A stretch of 64,000 bases of DNA from a virus, in IMG/VR virus record IMGVR_UViG_3300026533_000002, positions 54,977 to 118,976 of that record; one strand, given 5' to 3'. Of this stretch, positions 61,231 through 64,000 are shown piece by piece. The translations under genes were made by a program, and so were the position numbers. The notes under the pieces were generated by a model that saw only the letters and a program-made list of their open reading frames with translations, had not been told where the DNA came from and ran no database searches. Position 1 is the first letter of the stretch. The number at the start of each line of letters is the position of its first letter.

Positions 61231-61383
61231 ATGCCTGATAAGTTAAAGATAGAAGTAGCCGATATAGCAGAGAGATTAGATTCTCTCTCTAGTCAGGTTA
61301 GCTTCAATAGAAATGTGGATATAGCTATACTAATCATAGGATTACTTAGTCTTGGGTTTACAGTATATAGGTGGACAATGTAA
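61231..61383 (+). CDS. Small membrane protein (50 residues)
   Basis: A 50-codon frame from ATG 61231 with a weak GGCTAGTTGTAG upstream. It has an acidic amphipathic N-terminal half (KLKIEVADIAERLDSLSSQV) and one transmembrane helix (IAILIIGLLSLGFTVYRW). It may be a holin-related or accessory membrane protein of the lysis set. Its stop overlaps the next start by one base (TAATG). Confidence 0.62.
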   Translation: MPDKLKIEVADIAERLDSLSSQVSFNRNVDIAILIIGLLSLGFTVYRWTM

Positions 61384-61476: not shown

Positions 61477-62118
61477 ATGGCAGCAGAAGAACAACCTACG
61501 ACTAGCCTACTAGAAGAGAGGGTTGAGACTGTTAAGCGATATGGTGTGGCTGGTCTAGTTGTTATTCTGGTACCATTCTTTACCCCCTACATAGAGGACT
61601 ATATGTCCAAGCAGCAAGAAGATACTATGAGGGTTATAGCTAGAGAGATAGGGACAGATCTTAAAACTAGTATAGTTAGGCATATAGATAAGTCTAATAA
61701 GGTTGATGTTGATACACTAGTTACAATTACTAGGTTATCAGTTGCAAAGCAGTCTATTCATAAGGTTAAGTTTATTAAAGAATTACTTAATAAGTATAAA
61801 GGCTGTGAGGTAGACAATAGTGATAGAATTAAAAGTAAGATAAAGACAGAACTATATAGGCAATCAGCTATTTATGTAACCTTCTTAAATAAGTTTGAAG
61901 ACCCTGTGATAGGTAGGATAGGTGATTACATAGCCGCAGAGTTTCCTATGACTGTATTCTTAGAAGGTGTTAATGTAATAGCTTTAGATACAGAGATTTC
62001 AGTAGATGTCAGGTCAGATGATATAATGGTTTATATGCTTGATATACAAGATACATTCTTTACTGAGATGGAGCATAAAATGAAAAGAGGTATATATGAT
62101 ACTAGATACTATAAGTAA
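61477..62118 (+). CDS. Membrane protein with cytoplasmic or periplasmic domain (213 residues)
   Basis: A hydrophobic helix (about residues 21-42, YGVAGLVVILVPFFTPYI) follows a short polar N-terminus. The rest is a helical and beta region with no motif. AAGGAGTTAACA precedes the ATG. It overlaps the holin-like gene by 23 bases. A role as a lysis accessory protein is possible by position. Confidence 0.68.
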   Translation: MAAEEQPTTSLLEERVETVKRYGVAGLVVILVPFFTPYIEDYMSKQQEDTMRVIAREIGTDLKTSIVRHIDKSNKVDVDTLVTITRLSVAKQSIHKVKFIKELLNKYKGCEVDNSDRIKSKIKTELYRQSAIYVTFLNKFEDPVIGRIGDYIAAEFPMTVFLEGVNVIALDTEISVDVRSDDIMVYMLDIQDTFFTEMEHKMKRGIYDTRYYK

Positions 62119-62548
62119 TTTATTTGGTTCAGTTGTTGGAGGTGTTACAGAACACTTTAAAGGTAAGCAAGAACTTAAACGAATTAAACTAGAAGCAGAT
62201 AAAGAGATGTTAAGTATAGATGCTAAAGCTAGAGTAGCTATACAGCAGGCTAAAATAGATATGCTAAAGTCTAGTCAAGATAATGACTTTAAGTTAGACA
62301 TGATAGCTATGCAGAATATGAATAGATCTTATAAGGATGACTTTATATTAGCTATATTCTTACTTCCATTAGTAGCTGCATTTATACCAGAAGCACAAGG
62401 GTACATAATGGGTGGATTTCAGCTTATGGCTTATATCCCTGATTGGTGGATATACCTTACTATTGGTATGGTTGTATCTATAATGGGCCTTAGGGGATTA
62501 CTAAGAGATTTCCTTAAGGGAAAGAAAGTACCTATTATAAAAAAGTAG
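62096..62548 (+). CDS. Holin-like membrane protein (150 residues)
   Basis: A 150-residue protein with a helical, charged N-terminal half (EHFKGKQELKRIKLEADKEM) and hydrophobic helices in the last half (DDFILAIFLLPLVAAFI; then YIPDWWIYLTIGMVVSIMGL). This layout is common for holin-like proteins next to endolysins. It ends PIIKK then TAG, where the last codons ATA AAA AAG hold a slippery heptamer leading into the endolysin frame. The stop at 62546-62548 defines the normal product. Its start overlaps the previous gene by 23 bases. Confidence 0.78.
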   Translation: MILDTISNLFGSVVGGVTEHFKGKQELKRIKLEADKEMLSIDAKARVAIQQAKIDMLKSSQDNDFKLDMIAMQNMNRSYKDDFILAIFLLPLVAAFIPEAQGYIMGGFQLMAYIPDWWIYLTIGMVVSIMGLRGLLRDFLKGKKVPIIKK

Positions 62549-62626
62549 TATACCCACAGCCTAAGATAGAGCACAAGAAGTACGACTTTAAAGAGTCAGA
62601 GTTCGCTTGTAAATGTGGTTGTGGGT
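62539..62626 (+). promoter_or_regulatory. Predicted -1 ribosomal frameshift signal
   Basis: A AAA AAG at 62539-62545 in the holin frame, followed by the stop TAG (62546-62548). Starting 6 bases after the heptamer, ACCCACAGCC (62552-62561) can pair with GGTTGTGGGT (62617-62626) to form a 10-bp stem with one G-T pair. The loop is 55 bases. Slippery heptamer plus short spacer plus downstream stem is the standard bacterial -1 frameshift architecture (as in dnaX). A -1 slip continues as GTA GTA TAC into the endolysin frame. Not tested experimentally. Confidence 0.6.
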
Positions 62627-62985
62627 TTAATGCTGTAGATACTGAGTTGCTAGATGTATTGCAGGATGCTAGAGACCATTTCGTTAGTAAATATGGAGAA
62701 GGAGCTAAATGTATTATTACTAGCGGTAACAGATGCAAAGCTCATAATGAAGTAGTTCAATTACAAGCTAATCCTCAATATAAGGCATTTACTTCTAAGA
62801 GTAAGCATATGGAAGGTATAGCTGCTGACCACAAGTTTATTAAACCTGATGGTAAGGTTATTGACCCTAAGGAAGTATTGGGCTACTACGAGTCTTTGTA
62901 TCCTAATAAGTATGGGTTAGGTCTTTACAGTAATAGAGTGCATTTAGATGTGAGAAATAGTAAAGCTAGATGGAGTACGGTATAA
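62545..62985 (+). CDS. M15 peptidase endolysin domain, reached only by -1 frameshift or unusual start
   Basis: The frame is open from 62518 and gives FKESEFACKCGCG, then ITSGNRCKAHNEV, SKHMEGIAADH and RVHLDVR, the zinc ligands of an M15-type D-Ala-D-Ala carboxypeptidase endolysin. There is no ATG, GTG or TTG in this frame upstream of TTG 62647, and TTG 62647 lies inside the conserved domain. The only clean way in is a -1 shift at A AAA AAG from the holin-like gene, giving a 296-residue fusion (150 + 146). Alternatives are a start at a non-standard codon or an assembly error; a free endolysin from TTG 62647 would lack the N-terminal part. Cell-wall degradation is the family role. Confidence 0.8.
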   Translation, partial: VVYPQPKIEHKKYDFKESEFACKCGCGFNAVDTELLDVLQDARDHFVSKYGEGAKCIITSGNRCKAHNEVVQLQANPQYKAFTSKSKHMEGIAADHKFIKPDGKVIDPKEVLGYYESLYPNKYGLGLYSNRVHLDVRNSKARWSTV

Positions 62986-63010: not shown

Positions 63011-64000
63011 ATGAATGAAGAACAAGATATTACAGTAACTAAAAGTAAAACAAAGATACAGCCTAAGTGGAAGAATGCTCCTACTATGGCAGACTTAGAT
63101 GCTGACAGGTTATCTGCAGAATCTAGTCAAGATGAGTTTAGAGCTAAACTATTAGAGTGGGAACTTATCCGTAATGGTGGTAAAGAGATTAAACCTTCTA
63201 AGATAGGTAAATCTACTGCCAGACCTTTACTAGTTCGTAAAGTATATGAATGGAAATACTCCGCACTAGAAGACCCTATACTTAGCTCTAGTGCTCTGTT
63301 CAAGCTTACAGGTAGAACTTATGCAGATACAGCAGCAGCTAAACAGAATGGCTCTGTAATCAATTACCAGTGGAATACTAAAGTACAGAAGACTAAGTTA
63401 GTTAGTGATATTATCCACACACTAGTAGATGAAGGTACTGTTATAGTTAAGACTGGCTGGGTAGCTGAGACAGAACTACAGCAAGTAGAGAAAGAAGTTC
63501 CTACTTATGCCTCTCCAGAAGAATCTTATATGTTAATGCAAAAGATGGTTGAGTCTGGAAAGATGTCTCCTGAACAAGCACAAGCTATGTTAGAGACTGG
63601 TGAACCTATGCAAGTCGGTACAGAGATACAAATGGTAGAGGAAGAAGTACTAACTCGTAACCATCCAAAGTATGAAGTATGTGTTAATGCTAATGTTACT
63701 ATTGACCCTACTTGCGATGGAGTTGTAGCTGATGCATTATTCGCTATACATGAGTACGACACATCATATGCTGAGCTTAAAGCTGATGAGTACTATGTAG
63801 ATGAAGAAGGTAACGAGAACGGTATCTATCATAATATAGACTACATCCAAACTAATGGTGAGAGAGATGAGTACGACGAGCATACATCAGATGCTTCTAA
63901 TAACTTTGAGTTTAAAGATAAAGCTAGAAAGAGATTAAGAGCTTTTGAGTACTGGGGTTACTGGGATATTCAAGGTGATGGGGACTTAGTATCTATAGTT
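63011..64000 (+). CDS. Portal protein, N-terminal part (runs off right edge)
   Basis: The frame opens at ATG 63011 after AGGAGTACTA and runs to the window edge with 330 codons. It has KPSKIGKSTARPLLVRKVYE then WKYSALEDPILSSSALFKLT, INYQWNTKV, LVDEGTVIVKTGW and, near the edge, LRAFEYWGYWDIQGDGDL. This is the pattern of a podovirus-type portal (dodecameric connector, P22-like or related group). It lies directly after the lysis genes, not after the terminase, an unusual order. A TATAAT at 62981-62986 could serve as its promoter -10. Confidence 0.82.
   Translation, partial: MNEEQDITVTKSKTKIQPKWKNAPTMADLDADRLSAESSQDEFRAKLLEWELIRNGGKEIKPSKIGKSTARPLLVRKVYEWKYSALEDPILSSSALFKLTGRTYADTAAAKQNGSVINYQWNTKVQKTKLVSDIIHTLVDEGTVIVKTGWVAETELQQVEKEVPTYASPEESYMLMQKMVESGKMSPEQAQAMLETGEPMQVGTEIQMVEEEVLTRNHPKYEVCVNANVTIDPTCDGVVADALFAIHEYDTSYAELKADEYYVDEEGNENGIYHNIDYIQTNGERDEYDEHTSDASNNFEFKDKARKRLRAFEYWGYWDIQGDGDLVSIV

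Follow-up and report, generated by a model that had tools for sequence, protein, structure and literature searches.

How the peptidase of this lysis region is translated is the question raised by the locus, since the open frame of an M15 endolysin (62518-62985) has no usable start codon of its own and follows, out of register, a holin-like gene (62096-62548) that ends in a slippery heptamer. The window, which is the whole stretch of DNA analysed, is the final 64 kb of a viral contig of 118,976 bp; the features described here lie on its plus strand. The ends of the contig share 146 bp with one mismatch (window 63855-64000 against L226:1-146), and the contig therefore appears to be a whole genome that closes into a circle, probably circularly permuted and about 118.8 kb in length. 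The sequence of the site comes from a single metagenome assembly, and no second assembly of it was found. The set of ORFs was rebuilt for the whole genome and comprises 141 ORFs with 92% coding. No tRNA genes were found in the genome, and an influence of a phage tRNA-Lys on slippage was dropped for this reason. An SU10/N4-like portal gene adjoins the holin/endolysin site. A sister strain (L178), 97.8% identical, begins within the portal gene.

The holin-like gene is preceded by a Shine-Dalgarno-like AGAGGT and encodes a membrane protein of 150 aa, assigned to phrog_2524 by profile. It has two predicted transmembrane helices (residues about 82-100 and 115-136) and a basic C-terminus. The pair of hydrophobic segments, with seven basic residues behind the C-terminal one, suggests a cytoplasmic C-terminus, both ends facing the cytoplasm. 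Its function as a holin, and thus that of the N-terminal half of any fusion, is putative: relatives detected with tblastn include proteins annotated as holin or DUF3154, and no Pfam family matched at 0.001, GTA_holin_3TM (PF11351, the former DUF3154) included. The relative L199 scored 17 bits against GTA_holin_3TM, below the cut-off of 24.8. Two small ORFs (61231-61383 and 61477-62118) lie directly upstream of the holin-like gene, each with one hydrophobic segment. They matched no Pfam or PHROG family and are possibly further lysis genes, spanin or holin-like.

The peptidase frame opens at 62518, just past a TAA (62515-62517), and runs to 62985 with no ATG, GTG or TTG before a TTG at 62647, which falls inside the domain. 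The domain itself is well supported: PF08291 matched with 41.4 bits (curated cut-off 23.2) and phrog_894 with 4.3e-26, the presumed zinc ligands H97, D104 and H142 are present and invariant, and the AlphaFold model has a pLDDT of 91.8. The best PDB matches of the predicted fold are Ply500 and LysB4, with modest TM-scores of 0.46-0.47; it also resembles the T5 endolysin, listed as an L-alanoyl-D-glutamate peptidase, and with LysECD7 added the best matches span TM-scores of 0.4-0.5, which are again modest. All of these are known as free enzymes. Residues 1 to about 20 of the frame were modelled with low confidence. Because the model is ordered only from about residue 21, the stretch joining the holin-like part to the peptidase would be a flexible linker.

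The zero-frame gene ends CCT ATT ATA AAA AAG TAG, so that the heptamer A AAA AAG (62539-62545) is followed directly by the stop codon (62546-62548). Across the 118,976-bp genome and its 141 ORFs, A AAA AAG occurs in frame only at this site. In 100 genome-wide shuffles of synonymous codons 11.4 +/- 3.3 copies were expected and never fewer than 5 were obtained; the heptamer is thus avoided throughout the genome except here. A Shine-Dalgarno-like TAAGG (62515-62519) lies 19 nt 5' of the heptamer. The corresponding spacing in dnaX is about 10 nt, hence TAAGG is probably too distant and the upstream stimulator, an optional element of the dnaX type, probably weak or absent. In Escherichia coli A_AAA_AAG, which is the dnaX site, is far more shift-prone than the other heptamers compared, and a stop codon directly after a shift site has precedent, according to a frameshift review (PMC5009743).

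A candidate stimulatory stem begins 6 nt past the heptamer. Its 5' arm (ACCCACAGCC, 62552-62561) pairs with a 3' arm (GGTTGTGGGT, 62617-62626) over 10 bp, including one G-U, across a loop of 55 nt and with pairing probabilities of 0.92-1.0. The 95 nt after the heptamer (62546-62640) fold with -31.1 kcal/mol (z about -4.8 to -4.9), and only 2 of 995 sampled plus-strand windows of the late region folded equally well or better. Among the 57 in-frame slippery heptamers of the genome this one has the best downstream fold, the next reaching a z of -2.2. The 3' arm sits where the conserved CGCGF motif is encoded. The stem is nevertheless not dictated by the protein sequence, since the -1 frame was recoded synonymously 5000 times without once reaching this stability. 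No Rfam family matched the frameshift region.

A slip of -1 at the heptamer yields, on computed translation, a fusion of exactly 296 residues (62096-62985). This is the product given in the sequence-only reading, whose account of the heptamer before the TAG, of an endolysin frame without ATG, GTG or TTG as far as the TTG in the domain, and of a 10-bp stem placed 6 bases on with a 55-base loop was borne out in each detail, the one G-U pair being added. Its view that these elements form a frameshift signal is strengthened by the statistically exceptional heptamer and stem, and its view that the product is a fusion by the nearest relatives of the holin-like protein. The closest of these by far, L199 and L200 from IMG/VR, which are 67% and 71% identical, with the holin parts at about 68%, carry both families in an order matching that of the window but in one reading frame: both have a single uninterrupted ORF of 308 aa (L199:2992-3918 and L200:2977-3903), phrog_2524 and then phrog_894. 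The second half of each is an M15 peptidase with matching His/Asp/His by profile comparison, divergent and under the Pfam cut-offs. In the nearest known kin the two domains are thus parts of a single polypeptide; for the window to yield such a product a -1 shift is needed, unless its sequence lacks one base.

The other holin relatives examined are free proteins that stop near the same point, and in L154 the gene after the homologous holin is a distinct lysozyme gene that starts at an ATG. Among 80 loci with related portal genes, a homologous holin was present only in L154 and an M15 enzyme near the portal only in L138 and L144, each with its own ATG. The enzyme of L138 (L138:3980-4426) lies upstream of the portal gene and has a hydrophobic N-terminal extension; it is possibly another membrane-anchored endolysin. 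No relatives were found in which the two frames are out of register, the nearest being the in-frame fusions, and a scan of the genome collection with a holin profile gave no relative. An AlphaFold model of the L200 fusion (pLDDT 52) was not interpretable, and an alignment that mixed fusions with single domains proved misaligned and was left unused.

We consider it likely that -1 programmed frameshifting makes a free holin-like protein together with some holin-endolysin fusion. This reading is favored because the two closest holin relatives are in-frame fusions of phrog_2524 and phrog_894, because the genome has its lone in-frame A AAA AAG at this site, because the downstream structure is exceptional by its z value, its rank among the heptamers and the recodings, and because the peptidase frame has no usable start, a lack shared only by L095 among the homologous loci compared that contig ends do not cut. 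The flexible linker expected at the junction, the shift-prone nature of A_AAA_AAG in E. coli and the precedent for a stop directly after the site also speak for it. Against it, L199 and L200 manage without a frameshift, no out-of-register relative turned up to show conservation of heptamer and stem, the site comes from one assembly, and the upstream stimulator is probably weak or absent. In the model that we infer, which covers the frameshifting and its rate, the holin function, the topology and the delivery of the enzyme, one gene unit would give two products. Most ribosomes would end at the TAG at 62546 and release the free membrane protein of 150 aa. Some would pause at the stem (62552-62626), slip by -1 on A AAA AAG and read on past the stop through the M15 peptidase, so that the fusion of 296 aa results. 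Because the C-terminus is suggested to be cytoplasmic, the fused peptidase would be held at the cytoplasmic face of the membrane, out of reach of the wall, for as long as the membrane protein has made no lesion; afterwards it would work at the rim of the lesion or be released by cleavage. How many membrane subunits bear an enzyme would depend on the frameshift rate, most being bare and a minority armed. The wider proposition is that in a dsDNA phage -1 programmed frameshifting fixes how much holin stays free and how much bears the enzyme, with the endolysin made solely as a membrane-tethered subunit and delivered by its own lesion, and that sister phages arrive at this protein through a plain fusion; for this we see even chances.

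The main risk to the frameshift reading is a missing A. If the true sequence has A7, or another indel of 1 nt, the gene is a plain in-frame fusion, and the apparent frameshift stems from an error in sequencing or assembly or from a variant in the population. One inserted A gives the identical protein of 296 aa, L199 and L200 are both in frame, and L200 carries an in-frame A7 at the equivalent place; the site is also 1.4 kb from the end of the contig, where the overlap contains its mismatch. Such an error leaves unexplained the strong fold that starts 6 nt past the run and that no synonymous recoding equalled. With A7, moreover, the site would read A AAA AAA, again a slippery heptamer in frame and ahead of the stem and the only one in the genome against about 15 expected, suggesting that dnaX-like shifting would make a short product instead. 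On balance we regard the missing A as rather unlikely. Transcriptional slippage is considered unlikely here, the run consisting of six A only.

Separate initiation of the endolysin and decay of its gene are both less likely than the missing A. The first would place the start at ATA 62566-62568, aided by ribosomes that terminate at the holin stop codon, 17 nt before it. About 90 loci with free M15 homologs mostly have an ATG 11 codons upstream of the E in EFACxCGCGF, and the ATA occupies exactly this position; among the loci compared, those cut by contig ends excluded, L095 is the only other homologous locus with no upstream ATG, GTG or TTG, and has ATC there. AUA is a very poor start codon, however. 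No Shine-Dalgarno sequence was found before ATA 62566, while clear ones precede 61477, 62096 and 63011, the strong stem has its 5' arm ending 4 nt short of the ATA, and heptamer and fused relatives alike would have to be coincidental. We hold this to be very improbable as the route to the endolysin, although very weak initiation of free enzyme at the ATA may occur. The reading that we judge least probable, decay of the endolysin after loss of its start codon with another lysis enzyme in use, would account for the lack of a canonical start and for an ATA that may be a degraded ATG, but not for an intact domain that keeps its conserved residues at a position matching the lysozyme site of L154, a related phage whose holin is homologous.

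The preferred reading, -1 frameshifting, combines elements known from other systems. In textbook phage lysis the timer (holin) is separate from the enzyme (endolysin). The dnaX gene of E. coli, with variants in which the longer product needs the shift, shares A AAA AAG, a close downstream stem and two products with a common N-terminus (PMC5009743). The window differs from dnaX in the genes concerned, in its weak or absent upstream Shine-Dalgarno helper and in a longer loop, and its case is read from the nucleotide sequence. Shifts near a stop that yield a minority protein with an extended C-terminus are likewise described for phages, namely for the T3/T7 capsid and the kuravirus MCP (PMC9965538), and for lambda G/GT and SPP1 17.1/17.5 (PMC6316719). 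The dsDNA phage shifts cited in these papers concern structural or tail-assembly genes, while the window concerns lysis genes; neither holin nor endolysin is mentioned in the available part of the frameshift review (PMC5009743). A holin translationally fused ahead of an endolysin is also known, from Clostridium sporogenes (PMC9527704). That fusion, with a holin of the TpeE family, has a single transmembrane segment and a Gram-positive host and is plainly in frame with no frameshift, unlike the window. The novelty claimed in the sequence-only reading therefore does not extend to the fusion as such, and would lie in its combination with frameshifting, of which we found no report in a literature search that took in few subscription papers. 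If the frameshift reading is true, lysis timing and enzyme dose would hang on a ribosomal signal, and lysis would join structural and assembly genes as a target of programmed frameshifting in tailed phages. The window and its in-frame relatives form a natural series for testing the route of a tethered endolysin to the wall.

Several minor observations concern A runs and starts in related loci. The junction of the in-frame fusion in L200 (L200:3427-3440) reads CCA AAA AAA GAA, where a -1 slip would lead to an end about eight codons on; a mirror frameshift at this A7 was rejected, the downstream fold being ordinary (-13.3 kcal/mol) and such heptamers not rare there. In L095 (L095:2975-3000) the ATC at the M15 start position is preceded by AGGTG and adjoined by a tandem repeat. 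This locus was rejected as a second case of frameshifting, since the overlap contains no slippery heptamer and the ATC after AGGTG may act as a start. In a holin-like family found in L209-L217, long A runs lie just 5' of the stop, and the C-termini differ among close relatives (KKKR, KKNGK, KKKQ).
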